A stretch of DNA of 64,000 nt. Source: Chloroflexus sp. Y-396-1 (GTDB lineage Bacteria > Chloroflexota > Chloroflexia > Chloroflexales > Chloroflexaceae). Position numbers and translations under genes: made by a program. The number at the start of each line of letters is the position of its first letter. The stretch's first letter is position 1. This document shows, in pieces, positions 39,823 through 52,437 of the stretch. Below the pieces are notes generated by a model, which saw only the letters and a list, made by a program, of their open reading frames with translations, searched no databases and was not told the DNA's origin. The DNA is taken from positions 1 through 64,000 of the forward strand of contig NZ_KI911784.1 in the NCBI RefSeq assembly GCF_000516515.1, written 5' to 3'.

Positions 39823-40612
39823 TGCGCTTGGACGACGCATAGAACTGACAGCGCCGCCACAGCGTATTGTCTCGCTGGTGCCGAGTATGACTGAGTGGTT
39901 GTTCAGCGTTGGCGCCGGAGATCGGGTAATCGGCATTACCGACTACTGCATTGAACCGGCGGCAGCGTTGCAACGTCTGCCACGGCTACGGGGAACAAAG
40001 AATCCGGATCGCGCTGCCATTCTTGCACTCAAGCCTGACCTGATCATTGCCGAGCAAGAAGAGAACCGAGAACGGGACGTGAACGCTCTGAGCGCCGCCG
40101 GGCTTCAGGTATATGTGACTGCGATTCGGAGTGTCGCCGATGCCGCCACTCAACTGGCAGCGTTGGCGGCGGTTTTAGATGTCGTTGCAGAAGCAACACC
40201 GCTTACTGATGCCTTGCAGCAAGTGCTTCTTGATCCACCATTGCCAACGTATCGTGTGCTAGCCATGATCTGGCGTGACCCCTGGATGGCTATCGGGCGC
40301 GACACGTATGCTGGTGATCTGCTCCGGCTAAGTGGTTGCAGGAACGTCGCAGAGGCACTTCCAGGTCGCTACCCACGGGCAGCACTGGCCGATTTCCTCG
40401 CTCTCGAACCAGAAGTGATCTTACTACCAAGCGAGCCGTATCCTTTCGGTGAACGCGATAGGCTGACACTGATCGAAGCCGGTGCTCGTTGCCGGATCGA
40501 GTTCTGCGATGGAATGGCACTGACCTGGCCCGGTCCACGCACACCAGCAGCAATTGCAATGTTTCGTCGAATGTTCGGGGGAGATGATGAACCCACTCAT
40601 CCGCTTGCGTGA
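39809..40612 (+). CDS. BtuF-like metal/cobalamin-binding protein without signal peptide
   Basis: A 267-residue member of the helical-backbone substrate-binding family (BtuF/FhuD-like): RIVSLVPSMTEWLFSVGAGDRVIGITDYC, LKPDLIIAEQEENRERDVNALSAAGLQVYV, AIGRDTYAGDLLRLSGCRNVAEAL and LALEPEVILLPSEPYPF. Such proteins usually deliver B12, heme or siderophores to ABC importers, but this one has no signal peptide or lipobox with ATG 39809 (CAGGAG upstream), and no permease or ATPase is adjacent. It may act in the cytoplasm. It overlaps both neighbours, so coupled translation is likely. Confidence 0.82.
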   Translation: MIVYDALGRRIELTAPPQRIVSLVPSMTEWLFSVGAGDRVIGITDYCIEPAAALQRLPRLRGTKNPDRAAILALKPDLIIAEQEENRERDVNALSAAGLQVYVTAIRSVADAATQLAALAAVLDVVAEATPLTDALQQVLLDPPLPTYRVLAMIWRDPWMAIGRDTYAGDLLRLSGCRNVAEALPGRYPRAALADFLALEPEVILLPSEPYPFGERDRLTLIEAGARCRIEFCDGMALTWPGPRTPAAIAMFRRMFGGDDEPTHPLA

Positions 40613-41459
40613 AGCAGCGCTCAATACCTTACTGGGAACTCGCGAGCACGAGGTGCTGAACGATCCCCCACCACCACCTGTTGCTGTCGATGGGGTCACT
40701 CTGGCGGCTGAACTGAAACGGGCCGTGAACCGCTTTAAGGCGATGGCAATGGATGAAGAAGGCAGACAGGTAGCGTACCAACGCCTGCGTAACAATCCGG
40801 ATTACCTCGCGTATCGCGCCGAGCTAACCCCTCTTTTACAGGGGTTTGATCCCGCTTCCCTGCCGGATCGCCAAACCCGGCTGGCCTTCTGGATCAATCT
40901 CTACAACGCGCTGGTTATTGATGCCGTCATTACCTTCGGAGTCACAACCAGCGTTGCCGAGCAGTGGGCTGGCCTTAGCTTTTTTCGAGCGGCAGCATAC
41001 CGGATCGGTGGTCAACGCTGTTCACTCGATGATATTGAGCATGGCATTCTCCGCGCCAATCGTGGTCACCCGTTCATTCCCGGCCCCCAGTTTGCCGACA
41101 ATGACCCACGGCTCACCTGGATCATCGATCCACCCGATTACCGCATCCACTTTGCGCTCAACTGCGCTAGCCGCTCGTGTCCACCGATTGGAGTGTACAG
41201 CGCTGAACAGATCGAACAACAGCTCGATCTGGCGCTACGTAATTTCGTGGCCGCCGATGTCACTATCGATCCAGACCGCGCTGAGATTCATCTGTCGCGT
41301 ATTTTTGACTGGTACCGCGACGATTTTGGCGGGCCGAACGGGATTATTCAACTCCTCCGCCAAGCCCTACCAGATGACGAACGGCGGGCATGGCTCATGC
41401 AAGCGCGGCGTGGTCGGCTGGTCTATCGCCCTTACGACTGGACATTGAACATTATCTGA
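40584..41459 (+). CDS. DUF547 domain protein
   Basis: A 291-residue protein with the DUF547 hallmarks RLAFWINLYNALVIDAVI and FALNCASRSCPPI, plus the C-terminal LSRIFDWYRDDFGG. The family looks like a papain/transglutaminase-related fold with conserved Asn, Cys and His, and no settled function. No signal peptide is visible, though many members are exported. ATG 40584 or 40587 follows GGGGGAG and overlaps the BtuF-like gene by about 29 bases. Confidence 0.85.
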   Translation: MMNPLIRLREAALNTLLGTREHEVLNDPPPPPVAVDGVTLAAELKRAVNRFKAMAMDEEGRQVAYQRLRNNPDYLAYRAELTPLLQGFDPASLPDRQTRLAFWINLYNALVIDAVITFGVTTSVAEQWAGLSFFRAAAYRIGGQRCSLDDIEHGILRANRGHPFIPGPQFADNDPRLTWIIDPPDYRIHFALNCASRSCPPIGVYSAEQIEQQLDLALRNFVAADVTIDPDRAEIHLSRIFDWYRDDFGGPNGIIQLLRQALPDDERRAWLMQARRGRLVYRPYDWTLNII

Positions 41460-41469
41460 TGGAACACCT

Positions 41470-42294
41470 ATGGCTGACGACTGGCGCAAACGATCGCTGA
41501 AAGAACTCTACCGCTTAACCGGTCAAATCTTCTCGCAGATTCCAGAGCTAGCGCGTCTGTGGGGAGGTGCTTATCAGGCACTCAACTTCGCCGATGTTCC
41601 CTTCACTCCTCTACGCAAACCGCTGTCCGAGTGTCGCCTGGCGCTTATCACTACCGGCGGTGTACACCGGCGCGATCAGGAACCGTTTGACATGGATGAT
41701 CCACGCGGCGATGCTACGTATCGTCGTATTCCTGCCTCAACTCCCTTGCATGAATTGACCATTACCCACGACTACTACGACCACAGCGATGCCGATCGTG
41801 ACCTGAACATTCTCTTCCCTCTCGAACTTGTGCGGCATCTGGTGAGTCGTGGTATCATTGGCAGCCTGGCCGACAGCTACGGCTTCATGGGCCACATCGA
41901 ACCACCTCACCTCAACACACTGATCCAGCAGACTGTGCCGGAAGTTGCTACCTTCCTCAAACAAGACCAGGTTGATGCAGTCTTGCTGACACCTGGCTGA
42001 GGGCTCTGTAATCAGTCCGTGGGACTGATCGCACGTATTATCGAGAACGCTGGCATCAGCACAATCTGTATCGTGAGTCTGAAAGCAATTGCTGAACAAG
42101 TTCGTCCGCCGCGCACCCTGCATTTGGCGTGGCCGTTCGGGCATCCCCTCGGCGAGCCAGGGAATCGGATACAGCAGCTTGCCGTGCTGCACGCAGCGTT
42201 GCAGGGACTGGTTACTGCGCAACCAGGGCAAATTTTGGAACCAGGCTGGCGTTGGCGACGCGAACAGTATACGCTGCCGGAGGGGTGGGGGTAG
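41470..42294 (+). CDS. GrdB-family reductase with in-frame TGA, candidate selenoprotein
   Basis: Reads as one 274-residue protein if TGA at 41998-42000 is decoded as selenocysteine (residue 177). The part before shows the glycine/betaine/sarcosine/D-proline reductase subunit B pattern (CRLALITTGGVHRRDQEPFD, LVRHLVSRGIIGSLADSYGFMGHIEP, VDAVLLTPG). The same frame continues GLCNQSVGLIARIIENAGIST to TAG 42294. The motif becomes U-G-L-C, at the redox-active Sec/Cys position of the family. A SECIS-like hairpin follows. The alternative is a nonsense mutation of a Cys codon; then 41470-42000 would be a 176-residue truncated product. The substrate is unknown, and no GrdA or thioredoxin partner is adjacent. 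Confidence 0.78.
42007..42033 (+). promoter_or_regulatory. Candidate bacterial SECIS element
   Basis: ATCAGTCC (42011-42018) and GGACTGAT (42022-42029) form a perfect 8-bp stem with apical loop GTG; three more pairs (42007-42009 with 42031-42033) extend it past one mismatch. The loop begins 19 bases after the TGA and its first base is G, which fits the bacterial SECIS model as I recall it (short G-bearing loop at about 16-37 bases). Confidence 0.7.
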
Positions 42295-42408: not shown

Positions 42409-43019
42409 ATGTTGCTGGTATTGTGGATACTCCCGGCGCTCATCATATTTTTCATTGGCCTGATCTATTTCTTTGGTCTGATCTACATCCGCCTGGATAC
42501 GGCAGGACAAGCAGCAGTAGCACAGCGATGGAAAGATCGTTTCGTGCCAATGCTATTCTTTGGCGTTGCGATCCTTCTTATCTACTACTCTGTCCTTGCT
42601 CGCGTTGAAGAGGGTATTGCTCCATCTCAAGAGAATGATACATTATCTATAACTACAAACAAGGATGAGTATACGCTGTTCATTTTGTATCCGCGCACAA
42701 TTCACACTGACACTGTGACGAATTCATCACCCGAACTTGTGCTTTGGCTGAAAAATAATGGGAACGTGCCTGCATTGACCGTCACAGTTGAATTTTCCAG
42801 CACCATTCCTTTCACGTTCACCGACAGTACCGGCAACCAGTCGCATTACCGTTATCATTAACAGCCGACAACACTTCACGCCAGCAGCGCCTGGTGGTGC
42901 AATTCCTGCCCATAAGTGATATGATGGAAATCGAGATCAAGGTCAGCGATAAAAATGGGCAGAGCGAGACAAAAAAGATCGGTATCACGTATGAAACACA
43001 GTTTGCGTTCTTCTGGTGA
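42409..43019 (+). pseudogene. Membrane-anchored protein with a frame change
   Basis: The N-terminal frame (42409 on) has two hydrophobic helices (LLVLWILPALIIFFIGLIYFFGLIYI and FVPMLFFGVAILLIYYSVLA) and an extracytoplasmic beta-rich region with NNGNVPALTVTVEFSST. It ends early at 42861, but a -1 change near 42840 restores ALPLSLTADNTSRQQRLVVQF through ITYETQFAFFW to a TGA at 43017-43019, giving about 203 residues. The restored sequence reads as a natural beta-sandwich end. It is the first gene of the NTPase cluster. Decay and base-call error are both possible. No family is recognised. Confidence 0.62.
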
Positions 43020-43055
43020 ACGTTAAGAAACTTCGTTGGTGAAGAGGGTCTAGGG

Positions 43056-43796
43056 TTGGCGGCTGCATCGGCTGTATTCGGTATCGGCTGGCAAATATTT
43101 AGCGAGCGACGACAGGAGCGATTGGCTCAACAATCTGAACGTATTCGTGAAATACGTGATCTTTTTGAACGTGATCTTGTTGAATGGCATCTCGCTGCTG
43201 AGACGCTTTTGCGGGAAGAGAGCCGACACTGGGAAGATCAGACGCGCAGCGAACTGAAGAAAACCATTGAAGACCAACGTCAACAATTGACCAGTATTGC
43301 TATAAAAGAGCGGGTTATCCGTCTCTTGCAGGACGCCGCAGGGTACTATCGTGCGGGAGATGACAGAAGATTGAAAAGCATTTTCGAGTTGCTCAAGTTG
43401 GCGAAGCAAGAGTTTCGTCCTGAAACTGACTTATTGCTACTGCCGCCAGTGTATAATCAAAAGAGTGCAAAAACCACACTTGATATTTGTGCGAGCATTT
43501 TGAAATGTTTTGAGGTGAATGGCTACGAACTGATCATCGCAATGCTTGAGAGGCTGGCTTCCCATGCTGAAGGGAGACAATACCTCTTGCAGCGCATTAG
43601 AGAAACTGGGAATGTCACCACACCCAATGAGAACGTCTCCGACATGCGCGAAGTCATCAAACTTGCATCAAACGATCCGCGCATCCGTCAGCATCTTGCT
43701 GATAGACTACCTCCAACTTATGCATGGCCGTTGTTTACTCTCCACATCCAAAGAATATTGTCCGGCCTAAACCAATCACTGATTGGCTGGAAGTGA
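43056..43796 (+). CDS. Coiled-coil protein with N-terminal membrane helix
   Basis: About 246 residues from TTG 43056; the frame is open back to 43020, and no good start or ribosome site is visible, so the start is uncertain. A short hydrophobic segment (LAAASAVFGIGWQIF) is followed by charged helices (RRQERLAQQSERIREIRDLFERDLVEWHLAAETLLREESRHWEDQ). The C-terminal half is globular. The final 24 codons overlap the next gene in a -1 frame, and the last residues lose protein character, so the two may once have been one gene. No family is recognised. Confidence 0.6.
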   Translation: MAAASAVFGIGWQIFSERRQERLAQQSERIREIRDLFERDLVEWHLAAETLLREESRHWEDQTRSELKKTIEDQRQQLTSIAIKERVIRLLQDAAGYYRAGDDRRLKSIFELLKLAKQEFRPETDLLLLPPVYNQKSAKTTLDICASILKCFEVNGYELIIAMLERLASHAEGRQYLLQRIRETGNVTTPNENVSDMREVIKLASNDPRIRQHLADRLPPTYAWPLFTLHIQRILSGLNQSLIGWK

Positions 43797-44851
43797 ATGA
43801 ATTATCGATCAATCCTTTCGATCTGGAAGAATTGCAAGGTTTTGGCAAGTTCTGGGAAAGTATCGAATTAACTCGCAATCTGGAAGAATTGCAAGATTTT
43901 GGCAAGTTCTGGGAAATTATCGAATTAACTCGCAATCAGCAACATGCTACAATTGTTGCTAGTAGCAAGTTCGACTGTTACATCGCTGCATTTGCGCTGT
44001 ACAACGAACTCCGCAAACCGAATACACAGCGTCTCCCTTTCCTGGTTTTTCTATCCGATTTTGATCCGATTACCTGCGGGAGTCTGATACATTTTATCGG
44101 ACGTAAAGCTGGAAAATATTGGTGCACTGCGCTGGCCCGTCAGCCCGAGACGATACTCTGGCTGTTAGAAGATGAACAGATATTACTGGCCGAGTGGATG
44201 ATCTGGGTCAGCGGATCGTTGCCAACACTGCGGAGAACCTTACGCAATCAGAGTTTACAAAACCAGAGCTCGCAAAGCCAGGGTTCACAAGACAGGGGTT
44301 CAAAGAGCGATGTGGTCAGACAAATCGTGCTCCATCTTCTCGATAGGTTGTTATCCAATGCTACACCGAAGATACCGGATGCCAGAACCGTGCTGGATTG
44401 GTTGACTATCTGCCCACTCGGTATCAAACAGATGCACCTAATCGTTATTGACGATACCGGAGACGATCGAGCTAGGCAACTCACCACATTGATGCATGAT
44501 CTGCAACGCGCTGGTCTTACATGCACCTTATTTACAACATCCATACATACTGGCAAACACGGACATTCCGAAAGTATCCGGTTGCGCTGGACAGAAAAGG
44601 ATTTGCTGTCGCTGCTGGATAGTACAGTTGTTATTGTCAGTGAACAAAAGCGGTCTCTACTTGGACTGATCGAATTAGGAAACTCTGCAACAAATAAAGA
44701 GGAATTCGTAACAGAAATACTCAAGCGTGCCCATGGCTCATTCGCACGAAGTCTGATCATATTTCAGCATGCATTGGAACGACACTTGGTGTTATATCGC
44801 GATCAGAACGATCCAGCGTATAGTCTTCTTCAAGAAAACGACTTCAGATGA
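43724..44851 (+). CDS. P-loop-like protein lacking a Walker A motif
   Basis: A 375-residue protein of the same general layout as the NTPases encoded next: NPFDLEEL near the N-terminus, then ATIVASSKFDCYIAAFALYNELR where the neighbours have their P-loop, but without GxxxxGKT. MHLIVIDDTGDD resembles a Walker B strand. A 57-bp in-frame duplication (19 residues) lies at residues 34-71 and a four-fold Gln/Ser repeat at about 175-194. It overlaps the previous gene by 73 bases in another frame and the next one by an ATGA. It is probably an inactive paralogue in the complex. No characterised family is recognised. Confidence 0.62.
   Translation: MAVVYSPHPKNIVRPKPITDWLEVNELSINPFDLEELQGFGKFWESIELTRNLEELQDFGKFWEIIELTRNQQHATIVASSKFDCYIAAFALYNELRKPNTQRLPFLVFLSDFDPITCGSLIHFIGRKAGKYWCTALARQPETILWLLEDEQILLAEWMIWVSGSLPTLRRTLRNQSLQNQSSQSQGSQDRGSKSDVVRQIVLHLLDRLLSNATPKIPDARTVLDWLTICPLGIKQMHLIVIDDTGDDRARQLTTLMHDLQRAGLTCTLFTTSIHTGKHGHSESIRLRWTEKDLLSLLDSTVVIVSEQKRSLLGLIELGNSATNKEEFVTEILKRAHGSFARSLIIFQHALERHLVLYRDQNDPAYSLLQENDFR
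43823..43936 (+). repeat. 57-bp in-frame tandem duplication
   Basis: Two 57-base units (43823-43879 and 43880-43936) differ at only a few positions and encode LEELQGFGKFWESIELTRN and LEELQDFGKFWEIIELTRN. The near-identity implies a recent duplication that keeps the frame. Confidence 0.9.
44246..44305 (+). repeat. 15-bp in-frame tandem repeat, four units
   Basis: Four degenerate 15-base units encode NQSLQ, NQSSQ, SQGSQ and DRGSK, a Gln/Ser-rich linker. It resembles the SSQG repeat in the NTPase gene at 47849. Confidence 0.8.
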
Positions 44852-46245
44852 TAGACCATATAGACAATTACAACACGATTATTTCCACTGAAGCGCTCGA
44901 TACACTGGCTGCAGAGCGCGAATCCCATCTGCAACCGCCAGTGTTTGTCGAGCCGGACCGGTATGCCGCCTATACCGGTATGCGCTCGCTGGTCATCGTC
45001 GGTGACAGTGGTTCAGGAAAGACGGCGCTACGTTTGGCGCTGACTCGCCAAGTCGCCCCGGAAAATACCTCGCCAACATACCTGGTGGTAAACTGGCAGC
45101 CGGAACCGTTCGAAGATGTGCATGGCAGTCCAGCAGTGCGGGTCTTTGTGCGCCAGGCACTGCATGCCTGCGCAACAACACTACTCACGATCTTAGTCAA
45201 ACACCCTGACCTGTTTCGCCGCGCACCACCAACTGTTCAGATGACGTTCCACCGGTTTATTCAGGCACACATCAGCGCCGACAGACAACATCTGTGGGCG
45301 TCTATGGCAAAACAAGCGGTTAATGACGAAGGTAAAGCGCTCGGTCAGCATCTGATATTTGAGCCGGCGACAGCAATCCTATACCCTGATACAACCGAAC
45401 AACGTATCATTGCTTACCTGACTGCAACTCTCCAGCGGATTGGGATACGTGGTGTATGGGTAACGATTGATGGGTTCGATCCCTGGCTACGAGGATCAAC
45501 CGCTCTCATGTCAGAACTAATAATTGCCATCCTCTCAACGCTCGAACTTCTCGATCTGAATGGTTTTGCAATCAAAATGTTTGCGCCACGTGCTCTCGAA
45601 TCAGATATTACCAGAAGTTGGGGTATCGTTAAAGGTCGCATTGAGCTAGACACTCTCACGTGGACGCCAGAACAATTGACGACAATCACCGAACGCCGCA
45701 TTGCAGCGAAGATAGGAAAACCATCACTGCACTTGAGCGACCTCTGTGTGGCCGATCGGGATATTCGTGACTGGTTGCAACGCTACGGCGGAAGCACGCC
45801 ACGCGGCTGGCTCAGATTGATTCGCCCGGTGGTTGATGCTTTTGCCGCTGCTGGTGCATCGCATTCGCTTCCTCATAGCGTATGGAATTCGCTCAAGCGC
45901 ACCCATCCGCCCCGTCTCTCCATTGACCTTAAAGCCGACCGTGTCTTCATCGGTGAGGCCGAGATTGTCGGGTTGCAACCACGTTCCTACCGGCTGCTTC
46001 GCTATCTATACGAGAACCACTCGCGGCGTGTCCCGCGCAGCGAACTCTACTACCGCGCCTATCTGGGTCTGGCCGAAGAGCCGCGCACCCACGACGATCA
46101 CGGTTGGGAGGATCCTGCCAACTGGACAAACGTTCTCGATAATGCCATCCTGCGCCTGCGTCGGATCATCGAACCTGATCCCCGCCATCCGATTTATATC
46201 ATTACTAATCGTGGTTGGGGAGTTAAACTAGAACATGCTATTTGA
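44848..46245 (+). CDS. P-loop NTPase fused to an OmpR-type winged helix
   Basis: A 465-residue protein. Walker A is GDSGSGKT (52-59) and Walker B is VWVTIDGFDPW. The last 110 residues form an OmpR/PhoB-like DNA-binding domain: ADRVFIGEAEIVGLQPRSYRLLRYLYENHSRRVPRSELYYRAY, then DNAILRLRRIIEPDPRHPIYIITNRGWGVKL, with the typical C-terminal hairpin. This suggests a regulator that links nucleotide state to transcription. ATG 44848 overlaps the preceding stop (ATGA), so translation is coupled. A non-coding gap of about 300 bases follows. It shares its general plan with the SARP-type regulators but has no TPR or BTAD part. Confidence 0.85.
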   Translation: MIDHIDNYNTIISTEALDTLAAERESHLQPPVFVEPDRYAAYTGMRSLVIVGDSGSGKTALRLALTRQVAPENTSPTYLVVNWQPEPFEDVHGSPAVRVFVRQALHACATTLLTILVKHPDLFRRAPPTVQMTFHRFIQAHISADRQHLWASMAKQAVNDEGKALGQHLIFEPATAILYPDTTEQRIIAYLTATLQRIGIRGVWVTIDGFDPWLRGSTALMSELIIAILSTLELLDLNGFAIKMFAPRALESDITRSWGIVKGRIELDTLTWTPEQLTTITERRIAAKIGKPSLHLSDLCVADRDIRDWLQRYGGSTPRGWLRLIRPVVDAFAAAGASHSLPHSVWNSLKRTHPPRLSIDLKADRVFIGEAEIVGLQPRSYRLLRYLYENHSRRVPRSELYYRAYLGLAEEPRTHDDHGWEDPANWTNVLDNAILRLRRIIEPDPRHPIYIITNRGWGVKLEHAI

Positions 46246-46551
46246 AATGATTCATGCCGGTTCCCATCCTGCCGATTGTAAAGTATCTGTTCACCAGCAG
46301 TCTCTGCAGGAAACACCTGATGAGGTTTTGGTGAGATGATATTCAGTATTCTATCAGCATACCGTTAGCAGCTTGAGGGATAAGTGTAAATGTGGAGTAG
46401 TATGATTCGATATAGCGTTTTATGAGTAAAGAAATGAACATTTGTTCTAATTTATCCCAATGCGAAAAATCTCTTTCTCAAGAGTGAAGTACTACATTCT
46501 CAATGGCTAAACGCGCCAATAAAGAAACGGTTAACACATGGGTAAGATAGT
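46246..46551. other. AT-rich intergenic region in the NTPase cluster
   Basis: 306 bases between two cotranscribed-looking NTPase genes, without a gene. It is markedly more AT-rich than its surroundings and probably holds a promoter for the second half of the cluster; I see no clear operator. Confidence 0.5.
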
Positions 46552-47757
46552 ATGACTACTCGGGACAAGAACGAATATCCCGATGAGCATTCTCTCACAT
46601 CTACCGACTGGTTTCGCCGCATCGGTCTGCGGTTCGATCCGTATGTTCATCTGGAAGCATCAAGCGATCCCCATCTATCCGAATACACTGTCAACCTCGA
46701 CATATTTCGTGTCGCACTGGACAATAAACCAACCATCATTGTCGCTCCGCCGGGCGGTGGTAAAACCGCTATGCGTGTCGCAGTTACACGGACATGCTGG
46801 TTCGATATTGGCGGAACATACCCGTTCCCATTACCCTATAATTTGGGTATAGCACCCCTCACCGGTACCCCACCAACTACTAGGGAGCACCTGCGTCTGT
46901 TGCTTGAAGCAGGTACCTGCGCGCTACTCACCGGTCTGGCCTTTCGTCCAGAGCGGTTGTTTAGAGCATCAAGTACGGATATCCGAACCATAACCGCCAT
47001 TTTGCGCGCTGGTTTATCCGGACCACTCGATTACTACCTTGCTATTCTACGTGAAACCGGTACTCCGGCCGGATTGACCCCACTCCTAGAACGAACATAC
47101 GCTCTCACTGCACCGCCGCCACCTGATGTTCTTGATCGGTTTTGCAATACGTTAGCAACGTCTGGAACCGACGCTATGCGTGGGCGGATGGAGGAGGTCT
47201 TTCAGACATTTGTCGAGGTCGTGACCGACGCGCTCGGCTTCAGCCATGTTCTGCTTCTAATTGATGGTCTCGATGCAATGTATGAAAATCAGGAAGACGC
47301 TCAACATGCAGCACCATGGGCTTTCGAGCTATTTGATCGCTCTGAGACGTGGGCTAAATCGAAAACCTTTATCAAACTATTCATCCCCGATTCGTTAGAA
47401 TCCGCTATAACTGAATACCTTCACCACCATGCTATTCCCACGCAGATAGCTCGTATCATTTGGAACCACGACTTACTGGTAAGTATGCTACGGAAACGCA
47501 TTTCCGTTGCTTCCGAAGAACGCTTCGAGTCGCTCGACGCTATTAGCACGCCGGCACTAACCAATGTCGAACAACAGATTGTGAAAAATCTGCCGCCTTT
47601 GCCGCGCATTGCACTCCAGGTAACTCGGAAGGCAATCTTACACTACGCGGCGCGTTTGAACGACGGATGGCAACTTGATGAGGAGGACATTCGCTATGCT
47701 ATCGCCTGGTATCACCATTACGCAACCCAGCGCAGTCTATCGCCGCCATCGCGTTGA
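46552..47757 (+). CDS. P-loop NTPase, uncharacterised
   Basis: A 401-residue protein opening with RRIGLRFDPYVHLEASSDPHLSEYTV, Walker A APPGGGKTAM (65-74) and Walker B VLLLIDGLDAMYENQED. The N-terminal block before the P-loop is shared with Chloroflexota NTPases that I recall as unnamed. It has no DNA-binding or enzymatic tail. The start has only a weak GGGTAAG upstream. It ends 91 bases before the next NTPase gene. STAND-like or AAA-like activity is inferred. Confidence 0.78.
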   Translation: MTTRDKNEYPDEHSLTSTDWFRRIGLRFDPYVHLEASSDPHLSEYTVNLDIFRVALDNKPTIIVAPPGGGKTAMRVAVTRTCWFDIGGTYPFPLPYNLGIAPLTGTPPTTREHLRLLLEAGTCALLTGLAFRPERLFRASSTDIRTITAILRAGLSGPLDYYLAILRETGTPAGLTPLLERTYALTAPPPPDVLDRFCNTLATSGTDAMRGRMEEVFQTFVEVVTDALGFSHVLLLIDGLDAMYENQEDAQHAAPWAFELFDRSETWAKSKTFIKLFIPDSLESAITEYLHHHAIPTQIARIIWNHDLLVSMLRKRISVASEERFESLDAISTPALTNVEQQIVKNLPPLPRIALQVTRKAILHYAARLNDGWQLDEEDIRYAIAWYHHYATQRSLSPPSR

Positions 47758-47848
47758 TAAGAACCAACACAGTCTAGCCTGGCAGGGCACCGGCTCCATG
47801 TCCAGGATTTCAAAAATGTTCGGCGATCAACGAAACGGGAGGATAAAC

Positions 47849-49297
47849 ATGACACAAACCGATCTGCCGGTGTACAAAGCCGATCTCTTTGTCAATCGCG
47901 ATAAAGAGATCGAAACGGTAACTAAGGCTCTTGAGAACATTGCACGCGGCGATGCTGAGCAGGTGCGGACAATAGTGTTTCAAGGCGAACGTGGATTAGG
48001 CAAAAGCTGGCTGGCGCTTCATCTCCATCGCTTTGCTATAAAAGAGAAAGCATCCCCTCGGATACCAGATTATCGCATCGTATCGTTCTTAATCAGTCTT
48101 ACACCGCCCCCTGAAAGATTGCAAAAAGGTGAACGAGAATGGTATATCCCCAACAATGATATATCTCAGATCGCGAGCGGGGATGAGCGGCACTACGAAC
48201 ACTTGCTTCAGGAGCTTCTTGCCTGGATCGCGAAACAACTTGACATTGTTCGCACACCTTACGCTTCATTGCGCGATCTCTCCGCGTGGCTGGCACAGGA
48301 CGTCAGAAAGAAGCTGGAGTCAGAACGAAAGCTGATAATCTGCCTGATTCTAGACTCGGTGTTCGAAGCAAACAGGGGCTTCCTCGATTATCTAGAACGC
48401 TACCTACTCGCCGCGTTTGCAGCGTTACCACGTGTTTTAATCATTATGACAGGCCGTGGCCGTCCATATCTCTGGAAATCTCCTTATCTGCGCATCGAAC
48501 GTGAAGACCAATCGCTCACTCCTTTCTCGCATAAACAGGTTGCCGAGCAGATAAAAAAATCACTTCAAAAATCATCTCAAGGATCATCTCAGGGATCATC
48601 CCAAGGATCATCTCAAGGATCATCTCAAGAATCACCTCAAGAATCACCACACGATACATCCATAGCTGCCAATCTTTCCGACGAAGCGATCGAACAACTA
48701 GCAGGGAAAGTGATCAACCTAGGTGGTGGGTATCCGCTGACGAATGAGTTGCTTGCCAGAGCCTTGGTACATCAAGTGCTCGACAGATCACCGAAGAGTG
48801 ATGATCTCGAACAAGCAATCAATAGCGCGACCATTGATAACAAAGTGCTAGAGGATGTAGCAAGCCGCTTGTTAGAAGTGATACCCACGGAACGGCGCGC
48901 CAAGTTGCGAGAAGTACTCGATGCGCTGTGTGTGCTTAAGGATGGGTTTCGCGAACATGAGATGCCTTACTTTCTAGCGGAACTGCGTGATACGAAACCG
49001 GAGGGACCAGAATACACGATTACAGCTATGCGTGACTTGCGAGATCTTCTGCTTGAAACGAACCTAGGACGCTGGCAAGATGCAAGGTACGTCCTCGACG
49101 AAGCAGTGCGTACTGTTCTTGAACAGCTTCTGAAATTGCAAAAGCAAGAAGTCTGGCAACGCTTGCACAAACGGGCTGCAAATCTGTACGAAGACTGGGC
49201 GAAAAGGTATCCGAACAGTAGGCAGTACTTTGAACAGCGCGCCACATACCATCGTAGCGTGCTAGCGGAAGCGAAAGATGGCGGTCATTCTGTTTGA
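47849..49297 (+). CDS. AAA/STAND-type ATPase with SSQG repeat linker
   Basis: A 482-residue protein. It opens with KADLFVNRDKEIETVTKALENI, the usual lead-in of STAND/AAA ATPases, followed by Walker A FQGERGLGKSWL (44-55) and a Walker B-like LIICLILDSVFE. A Ser/Gln/Gly repeat at about residues 238-267 separates the NTPase from a helical C-terminal half (DEAIEQLAGKVINLGGGYPL, LREVLDALCVLKDGF), resembling the winged-helix part of NB-ARC proteins. ATG 47849 is set by GGGAGG; the frame opens earlier at 47675 inside the preceding gene. The next gene follows after 29 bases. Confidence 0.8.
   Translation: MTQTDLPVYKADLFVNRDKEIETVTKALENIARGDAEQVRTIVFQGERGLGKSWLALHLHRFAIKEKASPRIPDYRIVSFLISLTPPPERLQKGEREWYIPNNDISQIASGDERHYEHLLQELLAWIAKQLDIVRTPYASLRDLSAWLAQDVRKKLESERKLIICLILDSVFEANRGFLDYLERYLLAAFAALPRVLIIMTGRGRPYLWKSPYLRIEREDQSLTPFSHKQVAEQIKKSLQKSSQGSSQGSSQGSSQGSSQESPQESPHDTSIAANLSDEAIEQLAGKVINLGGGYPLTNELLARALVHQVLDRSPKSDDLEQAINSATIDNKVLEDVASRLLEVIPTERRAKLREVLDALCVLKDGFREHEMPYFLAELRDTKPEGPEYTITAMRDLRDLLLETNLGRWQDARYVLDEAVRTVLEQLLKLQKQEVWQRLHKRAANLYEDWAKRYPNSRQYFEQRATYHRSVLAEAKDGGHSV
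48560..48643 (+). repeat. 12-bp in-frame tandem repeat, seven units
   Basis: Seven units related to TCATCTCAAGGA encode an SSQG-type run ending in SPQE. The units are near-identical, so copy number is probably unstable between strains. Confidence 0.9.
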
Positions 49298-49326
49298 TTC
49301 GCCTGAACGACAAAGAGGACTTTGCT

Positions 49327-52300
49327 ATGAGTGAGCATGAACTTGAGCGTTATACCGGAGCATGGGCAACTCCTGACCTGGTTGGACGGCATGCGATACT
49401 TAAACAGATTGATACAGCGATCTCTAGTGCTTCAGGAGCATCTATTATTGCCCTGTATGGTAAGGGTGGTATCGGCAAAACGCGCATTTTGAACGACACG
49501 TTCAAGCGACGCAAACCCGGACTCTTCCTGGCACAGCAGGTAGTTGATCTGTACGACATGCAGTATCACAGCAGTCTAGCGCTTGCCAGTGCGATCTACG
49601 CCTCACTGAACGTTGCCAATAGTGGTCACTTCCGCACCTTTGAGGAAAAACGTGCGCAGCAGTACAAAGCGCAGATCTCGGGGGATGTGCGTGCGATTGC
49701 CGAAGCAACCCAGGAGACATTGCAAGCATTCATCACCGACTTCAACCGTTTCTCGCAGTCGCAGCACGTCGTGATTGCGCTTGATACGGTTGAACGCATT
49801 GCTTACGGCGCAACTGAGCAACGTCCGCCATTTCAGGTGGCCGCAGCCTGGCAATGGCTGATCGAGACCCTTCCCAACTGGGGCAACGTTACTGTTCTGG
49901 TCGCTGGGCGCAACCAGATTCGCCATCTCTTCCCAGACCCTGAGAACCATCCGGCAATTCGTCTGACCACTATCGAAGTAGGACCATTCACCCTAGAGGA
50001 AACAAACGAATATCTGGACGCAGTGGCGCGAGCCGCCGAACAAGCGGGTGAGCAAGCGGTTGCAAATGCACTGCGCAGTCTAAACCCGCAGTACAGGGAG
50101 CGAGTGTACCGCTACTCCGGCGGTGCGCCGATTATGCTTGCACTTTTGGCCGATTACATTAGCATTTCCGGATTCGGGCAAATACCAGACATCCTCGATG
50201 TCGATACCGATCCTGCGCGTGCACAAGAGGAACTCGAGCGACAGATCGTCAAGCGAATGATAGACACTAAAGGCATCCGGGATATGCTCCCTATGCTGGG
50301 GCGAGTACCAAAAGGCGTTGATGAAGAATTGCTGGCGTATCTGCTCGAGATTTCAGTTGAGGAAACACGTGATCGACTCGAGCCTGTTAAGCGCCTGTCG
50401 TTTGTTAAGGTGCGCGATGGTCGTTACTTCCTGCACGACGAGATGTATGCTATCCTGGCGCGGCAGATTTATAGTGCACCAGGCGACGCACCTGAAGCTG
50501 CGCGCGTCAACGAAACAATCATTAAATGGTACAAGAAACAGATTGACGAGTACCGAGAACGACTCAATAACCTGTACAAGCCAATAGAGGAGGAACATCG
50601 CATCGGCCATGTAACCTTGCACCTCGATTACGGACACATCATTGGTGTCCAGCAGGCAATTAATCGCCTGCTGGTTGAACACATGTACTATATCTTACGA
50701 CTTAATCCACTTGACGGATTTCGGGAGTATTTCCGATTGAGCTTCTACACAACTTTCACTGGTAACACCATGCTCGACATTCAGCTCCAGGCAGAGTTGC
50801 TGGTATTTCTCAACGAGCGCGATCCATTAGGACAGCAATCGTTCATTGATGGTCTGGAACGTGAAGTTGCCCTGGGTGTTGCCGCACTTCGCCCGATTGT
50901 GCGCCTGTATACAGAGAATAATTACGTTGGCGTCATTCAACGTGCACAGCTCCTGCGTAAGGAAGAGCCACATACACTGCAAACCGCTGGCAGGACAACC
51001 GAAGCAGCGCTCAATATCTGGGAAGCACTGGCGCGGCTTGGACGTGCCAGCAAAGAGGAGCAGGACCTTACGCACGCCGATCACCTGCTGGATTCTGCGA
51101 AACAAATCCTGGAAGCAATCGATACATCGCCAGACGTTTCTGAAGCGCAACGCTGGCTCACCAGAAGTCTGCTGGCACTGGCACACCATGCAAGTGGATT
51201 CGGGTTGCGGGTACGCGGGCAGATACGTTCGGCAATCAAAGAATACCGTCTTGCCGCTGCTCGTTGGCGGCAGGTTGATGTACCGATTTGTCTAGCCTGG
51301 ACATTAAACAACCTTGGTTTTGCTGAGAGTGAAGAGGGGAACTTTGCCGACGGACAGAGACTGGTTGAGGAAGGTCTCGTTATCCGGAAGAAGCTGGGTG
51401 CACGGGCATTGATCGGCGTAAGTTACGCCACTCTCTCGCTCGTCCTTGTCTACGCAGGCAACTACATACTGGCACGGGTCAATGCAGAGCGTGCGTTGCG
51501 ATTATTCCAGGCAGTCGAATATCGTTTGGGGCAGAGTCTAGCACTGAGGAACCTCGCCGAGACACTGCGTCGATCAGTAAAGCGCGATGATGATCCTGTT
51601 CATCGCATTCAGATCTTGCATGAGGCATACCAATCTGCGCAAGTAGCCTATAAACTCTTCGAAGAGATAGGTGATCGTCCACGCCAGATCGAGTCGCTGA
51701 TAGAGGCGGGGAAGGCGCTACGTGATTGCATCGGTATCAAACACGATTATCCCTCATTGCTAGAAGACGACCTTGACACCCTGATGCAGCAGAGTATGAA
51801 TATACTAGAACACGCTGCCGAACTTGCGCGCCAGACTAACAATTTCTTCCATGCAATTGATGCCTATATTAACATCGCCTCTGCTGGCTTTGATGGCAAA
51901 CGGATAGACATCAGCGAGAAGTATCTAACAACAACGCGCGAAGCAATCCCTGATAACTATCTGATCACTCGTCAGAGAATTCCAAATCCCGACGACCAGA
52001 ACCAGGTACAAAACCGCCAGTTTTTCACCTTACTGGCACGCATCCATTTCCTGATCGGCAACCGTCTACTGATGAATTACCGCAATCTTAGCAAGCAACC
52101 AACAGATAACGAACGACTAGAAGATCTCACTCACGAGTATGCCAGCATTGCCGCACGATTCATTGATGAAACTCCTGCGAATATTCAGACAGTTGATGAT
52201 TGTCTGCGATACGCGATTCATCATTACGCACTATCGTTTGAGTATGATCGGCTATACAATCCCAACCATCCCTATGGATTACGGGCACGAAATATTTTTT

Positions 52301-52437
52301 ACGAGCGATTGAAAGGTTTGAACGCCGAAGAATTAGACATCGTTGCGCAGGCAGTACGCACTTTTGAGCATGATTATCCGGTAGGCAAGTCGGCGATGCG
52401 CGATCTCCTCGAACGTTGTGCGCTACTGATCGAATAG
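49327..52437 (+). CDS. STAND NTPase with TPR-like C-terminal repeats
   Basis: A 1036-residue protein with NB-ARC/STAND architecture: Walker A YGKGGIGKTRIL (44-55), Walker B HVVIALDTVE, a Sensor-like VTVLVAGRNQIRHLF, the GGAPIMLALLADY motif typical of the NB-ARC winged-helix entry, then a long alpha-helical region with TPR-like units (ALNIWEALARLGRASKEEQDLTHADHLLDSAKQIL; AWTLNNLGFAESEEGNFADGQRLVEEGL; ALRNLAETLRR). No effector domain is recognised at either end. ATG 49327 has AGAGGA upstream. Such proteins act as sensors that oligomerise on a ligand, often in defence or development; here the role is unknown. Confidence 0.85.
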   Translation: MSEHELERYTGAWATPDLVGRHAILKQIDTAISSASGASIIALYGKGGIGKTRILNDTFKRRKPGLFLAQQVVDLYDMQYHSSLALASAIYASLNVANSGHFRTFEEKRAQQYKAQISGDVRAIAEATQETLQAFITDFNRFSQSQHVVIALDTVERIAYGATEQRPPFQVAAAWQWLIETLPNWGNVTVLVAGRNQIRHLFPDPENHPAIRLTTIEVGPFTLEETNEYLDAVARAAEQAGEQAVANALRSLNPQYRERVYRYSGGAPIMLALLADYISISGFGQIPDILDVDTDPARAQEELERQIVKRMIDTKGIRDMLPMLGRVPKGVDEELLAYLLEISVEETRDRLEPVKRLSFVKVRDGRYFLHDEMYAILARQIYSAPGDAPEAARVNETIIKWYKKQIDEYRERLNNLYKPIEEEHRIGHVTLHLDYGHIIGVQQAINRLLVEHMYYILRLNPLDGFREYFRLSFYTTFTGNTMLDIQLQAELLVFLNERDPLGQQSFIDGLEREVALGVAALRPIVRLYTENNYVGVIQRAQLLRKEEPHTLQTAGRTTEAALNIWEALARLGRASKEEQDLTHADHLLDSAKQILEAIDTSPDVSEAQRWLTRSLLALAHHASGFGLRVRGQIRSAIKEYRLAAARWRQVDVPICLAWTLNNLGFAESEEGNFADGQRLVEEGLVIRKKLGARALIGVSYATLSLVLVYAGNYILARVNAERALRLFQAVEYRLGQSLALRNLAETLRRSVKRDDDPVHRIQILHEAYQSAQVAYKLFEEIGDRPRQIESLIEAGKALRDCIGIKHDYPSLLEDDLDTLMQQSMNILEHAAELARQTNNFFHAIDAYINIASAGFDGKRIDISEKYLTTTREAIPDNYLITRQRIPNPDDQNQVQNRQFFTLLARIHFLIGNRLLMNYRNLSKQPTDNERLEDLTHEYASIAARFIDETPANIQTVDDCLRYAIHHYALSFEYDRLYNPNHPYGLRARNIFYERLKGLNAEELDIVAQAVRTFEHDYPVGKSAMRDLLERCALLIE

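Follow-up and report, generated by a model that had tools for sequence, protein, structure and literature searches.

The window, i.e. the 64,000-nucleotide stretch of DNA of Chloroflexus sp. Y-396-1 that was analysed, lies at the beginning of a genome that is complete in one contig of 4.89 Mb (4,890,986 bases). It contains a gene for a PrdB-like protein with one in-frame TGA codon, preceded by a gene coding for a DUF547 protein and carrying a SECIS-like stem-loop within its coding sequence (Table 1). Translation of this gene with TGA read as selenocysteine (Sec, U) resulted in 274 residues followed by a stop codon, the single TGA being codon 177, beyond which the frame runs on for 97 codons. 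The sequence around codon 177 reads LLTPG-U-GLC-NQSVGLIARIIENAGIST, and translation thus bore out the original observation of one TGA within a continuous 274-codon frame, giving U-G-L-C.

Table 1 Features of the PrdB-like locus in the window, and the double-TGA paralogues found in other genomes
Feature	Position	Strand	Details and basis
DUF547 protein gene	40554..41459	+	PF04784, 139.9 bits; ends 10 nt upstream of the PrdB-like gene
PrdB-like selenoprotein CDS (predicted), 274 residues	41470..42294	+	ATG start, TGA as Sec at codon 177, TAG stop; translation, TIGR04483, PF07355, full-length homologues all with TGA
UGA codon, probably read as Sec177	41998..42000	+	First position of the UxxC motif U-G-L-C (Sec177...Cys180); TGA kept in homologues, Cys180 invariant
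Bacterial SECIS-like stem-loop within the CDS	42007..42033	+	Stem 42011-42018 with 42022-42029 (8 bp), loop GUG 42019-42021, basal 3 bp 42007-42009 with 42031-42033; fold and conservation
Double-TGA paralogues, L195-L201 (G009, G013, G363, G378, G360, G380, G326)	e.g. L195 from 1999		L195 reads U-P-I-U-H-Q-S-V-A

With the standard bacterial code (table 11), the locus falls apart into a 176-aa ORF ending at position 42000 and a separate 91-aa ORF (42019-42294). A gene caller using this table would yield two fragments, which makes the locus a clean example of a hidden selenoprotein. The window contains 23 TGA-terminated ORFs with a length of 150 codons or more, and readthrough for at least 90 codons is possible in two of these, namely the PrdB-like gene and the ORF at 40846-42000. 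The latter is a chance shadow frame overlapping the DUF547 gene. Chance readthrough of the PrdB-like frame is unlikely, because homology flanks the TGA on both sides and is continuous in relatives, as was seen in every full-length relative in the order Chloroflexales and in nearly all wider relatives.

Family assignment and known relatives

The best family match of the protein was PrdB, the 26-kDa Sec subunit of D-proline reductase (Clostridium sticklandii type). The corresponding model (TIGR04483) matched residues 45-250 (174.3 bits, E = 2.7e-51) and hence spans the TGA; however, the equivalog cut-off of 300 bits was not reached. The PF07355 (GRDB) model passed its gathering score (32.7 bits versus 22) with a match restricted to residues 38-174, whereas the GrdB-type models TIGR01917, TIGR01918, NF040794, and NF040795 scored 43-52 bits against cut-offs of 65-800, thus all below. 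The original assignment to the GrdB family was corrected in this respect, the protein being nearer to PrdB than to GrdB (174 versus 43-52 bits). Besides the homology, it has in common with PrdB a single short chain and a predicted Sec residue in a UxxC motif at the matching place. With GrdB, GrdF, and GrdH, the substrate-specific selenoprotein B of glycine, sarcosine, and betaine reductases (PF07355, TIGR01917/8), it shares the superfamily and the UxxC motif, although their models comprise approximately 431-435 positions, compared with 274 residues for the Chloroflexus chain.

The PrdB match and the position of the UxxC motif, which is right for PrdB, would agree with a genuine component of a D-proline (or glycine/betaine) reductase, the pyruvoyl partner of which would then be too divergent for detection by PF09338 (Gly_reductase), the family to which PrdA, the pyruvoyl-forming partner subunit, is assumed to belong. 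This alternative is improbable in view of the score below the equivalog cut-off and of the PF09338 search, which gave no match in the complete host genome or in any of 60 members of the order. This absence is meaningful, because the same search matched strongly (up to 421 bits) in four control genomes (G118, G212, G303, and G235), being members of the phylum chosen for their GrdB-length relatives. In addition, the adjoining genes in the window are not of the prd or grd type according to Pfam, and no such neighbour recurred in relatives. Both PrdB sensu stricto and GrdB sensu stricto were rejected on the basis of score and missing partner. As the pyruvoyl-type partner subunit is missing, the protein is unlikely to act on D-proline, glycine, sarcosine, or betaine, and is probably neither a D-proline nor a glycine reductase. 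The host is a member of the Chloroflexales and not an amino-acid-fermenting Clostridium, in contrast with that of PrdB.

It seems fairly likely that the gene exemplifies a broadly distributed branch within the PrdB/GrdB superfamily (Chloroflexota, Nitrospirota, Nitrospinota, Desulfobacterota, Rokubacteria, and others), which represents a pyruvoyl-independent, stand-alone selenoenzyme that also occurs in phototrophic and aerobic bacteria and is mislabelled as 'proline/glycine reductase'. The missing pyruvoyl subunit indicates that 'proline reductase' labels on this PrdB-like branch are probably wrong, and raises the testable question of what the stand-alone PrdB-like selenoenzyme reduces.

PrdB-like Sec proteins from the surface ocean were reported between 2005 and 2008 (PMC1088965, PMC2398784). 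In both the Sargasso Sea (42 sequences; PMC1088965) and the Global Ocean Sampling set (235 sequences; PMC2398784), Sec-containing 'PrdB' proteins with UxxC ranked among the most frequent selenoproteins. These sets of 'Proline reductase PrdB' consist of Pfam07355-type UxxC selenoproteins of aerated waters, mostly Sec forms with fewer Cys forms, and probably belong to the same broad family as the Chloroflexus gene. They differ in being metagenomic and named by best match, whereas the completeness of the Chloroflexus genome makes the absence of the partner demonstrable. Three selenoproteins were credited to Chloroflexi in 2006 (PMC1794560). Two reviews, from 2022 and 2026, include PrdB and GrdB with UxxC and leave Chloroflexota unmentioned (PMC9312934, PMC13188914), and Sec is expected to be rare in aerobes (PMC13188914). 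A Sec-containing member in a phototrophic or aerobic Chloroflexus-like host, originally considered unusual, turned out to be less so, as the gene occurs commonly among Chloroflexales and surface-ocean metagenomes are rich in PrdB-type UxxC selenoproteins (PMC1088965, PMC2398784). The family itself was known before, and the Chloroflexus gene is a newly found, well-supported addition to it, extending the filamentous phototrophs and their relatives with a well-defined selenoprotein.

Selenocysteine machinery, TGA conservation, and SECIS-like hairpin

All four genes of the Sec machinery were retrieved from the complete host genome, namely selA (563 bits), selB (318 bits versus a cut-off of 242), selD (383 bits), and selC, coding for tRNA-Sec(UCA) (70.8 bits, at 2902841; tRNA-SeC with anticodon tca according to ARAGORN). 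The selD gene possesses an in-frame TGA near the N-terminus (CAG-U-AAKLGPG), presumably at the usual Sec position of SelD, followed by a stable GC-rich hairpin, and is thus itself a TGA-containing selenoprotein gene.

A PrdB-like match was present in 30 out of 60 Chloroflexales genomes, two of the matches (L026 and G013:C53) representing the double-TGA paralogue described below. Codon 177 was TGA in all 27 order-level homologues spanning the site, down to 31-34% identity, and never TAA, TAG, a Cys codon, or another sense codon. TGC or TGT in close relatives devoid of a SECIS, as expected for a strain-specific nonsense mutation, was accordingly not encountered. The phylum search added more PrdB-like loci, and a wider contig scan revealed at least 80 further ones in Chloroflexota, Nitrospirota, Nitrospinota, Desulfobacterota, Rokubacteria, SAR324, and others. 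Among 90 mapped loci of this wider set, the site was TGA in 87, TGC in one, TGT in one, and GGA in one, a proportion that is biased, since these loci are the best-scoring scan matches and come partly from the same genomes as the order set. Residue 177 is hence predicted to be Sec in the homologues and rarely Cys, the Cys-encoding ones being L183 and L184. Invariant residues in the alignment include Sec177, Cys180, H100, Y103, H105, D111, R85, and G141. In the phylogenetic tree, the Chloroflexaceae sequences formed one supported clade (100/95) together with one sequence from another family, a pattern that fits inheritance within the group. The GGA codon (Gly) occurs in L145 (from 4490), in which the full SECIS hairpin is retained; either Sec was lost recently in this homologue or the assembly contains an error.

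The mRNA just 3' of the UGA can pair as AUCAGUCC-GUG-GGACUGAU, forming a perfect 8-bp stem with a 3-nt loop that starts 18 nt after the UGA and has G as its first base. No Rfam family reached its gathering score in the window. In terms of folding energy, the hairpin region did not stand out (z = -1.2), and the case for a SECIS therefore rests on conservation. Indeed, the hairpin is conserved in the 27 order-level homologues, with standard pairs in 96.5% of the pair cells, compared with at most 38.5% in slid registers. Similarly, when 66 columns with a conserved degenerate amino acid were ranked by codon conservation (26 homologues), the top six were TGA177, CAG182, TCC183, GTG184, GGA185, and CTG186, codons 182-186 being the five stem-loop codons. 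Double changes in the stem were few among the 27 closely related sequences. Among 90 distinct sequences, the pair 18-28, which joins the third base of codon 182 to the first of codon 186, was G-C in 78 and A-U in 12, the latter form arising through the synonymous, compensatory changes CAG>CAA and CTG>TTG. Pairing in these 90 sequences amounted to 96.3%, versus at most 53% in slid registers and at most 93.6% in 1000 shuffles; the shuffle test ignores kinship, but the A-U form was nonetheless found in several separate taxa. The hairpin was absent from both Cys-encoding homologues. With respect to the presence of a SECIS, a hairpin thus occurs just 3' of the UGA and is strongly constrained.

At a UGA codon, Sec insertion is always in competition with termination, which leaves room for a regulated switch, whereby most ribosomes would stop at low selenium and the resulting 176-residue product would have a role of its own. 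This possibility is very slight, as this form would contain neither the redox motif nor the last third of the domain, and as nothing in the analysis points to a separate role for it. The chance that the TGA is a nonsense mutation in a decaying pseudogene, or that the two ORFs of the table-11 reading are separate genes, is negligible, given the full Sec machinery, the synonymous sites just past the TGA being the most constrained of the gene, and the same TGA in all order-level homologues and across phyla, on account of which a sequencing error was rejected as well.

The reading of the UGA as a Sec codon is, in contrast with decay, well supported by these comparisons, and the original preference for recoding was upheld by all computational checks suggested along with it, namely the Sec machinery, the TGA kept in homologues, and the constrained hairpin. 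Mechanistically, SelB would bind the short mRNA hairpin just 3' of the UGA and bring Sec-tRNA(UCA), which would result in a full-length product of 274 residues with Sec at position 177 in UxxC.

Proposed function, gene neighbourhood, and distribution

The best explanation overall, with a probability of roughly 0.85, is a full-length Sec protein produced by means of a SECIS, being a stand-alone relative of PrdB that functions as a UxxC selenol-thiol oxidoreductase. The latter role is a best guess, suggested by the UxxC motif and the predicted fold. A structure predicted on the basis of eight relatives (pLDDT 83.1, pTM 0.83) displayed a helical N-terminus of low confidence and an alpha/beta core, in which Sec177 is located between a strand (170-174) and a helix (178-193), directly before the latter. 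Fold comparison returned weak, mixed Rossmann-like matches, and a search by sequence for solved relatives found none. Microcystinase C, the top VIA row (Z 9.2, 3.8 Å, 157 residues, 12% identity), was too weak a match to name a function. According to the mechanism proposed, Sec177, situated in an alpha/beta (Rossmann-like) domain at the N-terminus of a helix that follows a strand, may attack the substrate and then form a selenenyl-sulfide with Cys180 as the resolving residue, after which a dithiol reductant, for instance thioredoxin, would reset Sec177. In one Chloroflexales family (f3; G002, G022, and G025), a thioredoxin-like gene adjoins the homologue, which fits such a reset step without proving it; adenylate-kinase-like genes are neighbours in this family too.

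In Chloroflexus, the DUF547 gene may be co-transcribed with the Sec gene. Among the relatives, those from Chloroflexus and from one additional genus share this gene order, which does not recur elsewhere. The longer upstream run of genes for an ATP-grasp protein, a periplasmic binding protein, and the DUF547 protein is kept in Chloroflexus only, and partly in one other genus. Neighbours in some Desulfobacterota and Nitrospirota encode a P-type ATPase with YHS and heavy-metal domains, and cytochrome c or rhodanese-like proteins, whereby neighbour genes of relatives outside Chloroflexus were named by eye from their sequences and not by Pfam. No common partner gene was found among the neighbours of the relatives, and the neighbours say little about the substrate, because they are unconserved beyond close relatives. 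Directly 3' of the Sec gene, the window contains a run of genes (42409-52437, + strand), some of which encode NTPase-like proteins, including AAA_16-like ones, a protein with a Trans_reg_C winged helix, another with SQGSSQGS repeats, and an NTPase-like protein of 1047 aa. This run was not seen at the matching place in relatives, and PADLOC gave no match for the five of its proteins that were examined.

The presence of the PrdB-like gene is linked with that of the Sec machinery. Among the 60 genomes, it occurred in 28 out of 46 with selA and in 2 out of 14 without selA (Fisher one-sided P = 0.0024, a value that ignores kinship, related genomes not being independent). Both selA-less genomes with the gene are incomplete assemblies. 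The complete genome G041, of the same genus, lacks the PrdB-like gene, selA, selD, and a selB above the cut-off. An intact-looking tRNA-Sec gene (L037), accepted by ARAGORN, persists in G041, and is possibly a relic of a recent loss of Sec use. Three genomes of the same family (G004, G008, and G050) possess tRNA-Sec, selA, selB, and a TGA-containing selD, and lack the PrdB-like gene; these genomes must encode a further selenoprotein, unless selD is the sole one found so far.

Finally, a paralogous PrdB-like clade was found in the class Chloroflexia, in which two in-frame TGA codons occur and UPIU replaces UxxC in all seven genomes concerned. UxxU motifs are described in the 2026 review for other families, and not for PrdB-like proteins (PMC13188914). 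The six double-TGA paralogues placed in the tree formed a single supported clade (100/100). Judging from the two codons, both redox positions of this paralogue seem to be Sec (UxxU).
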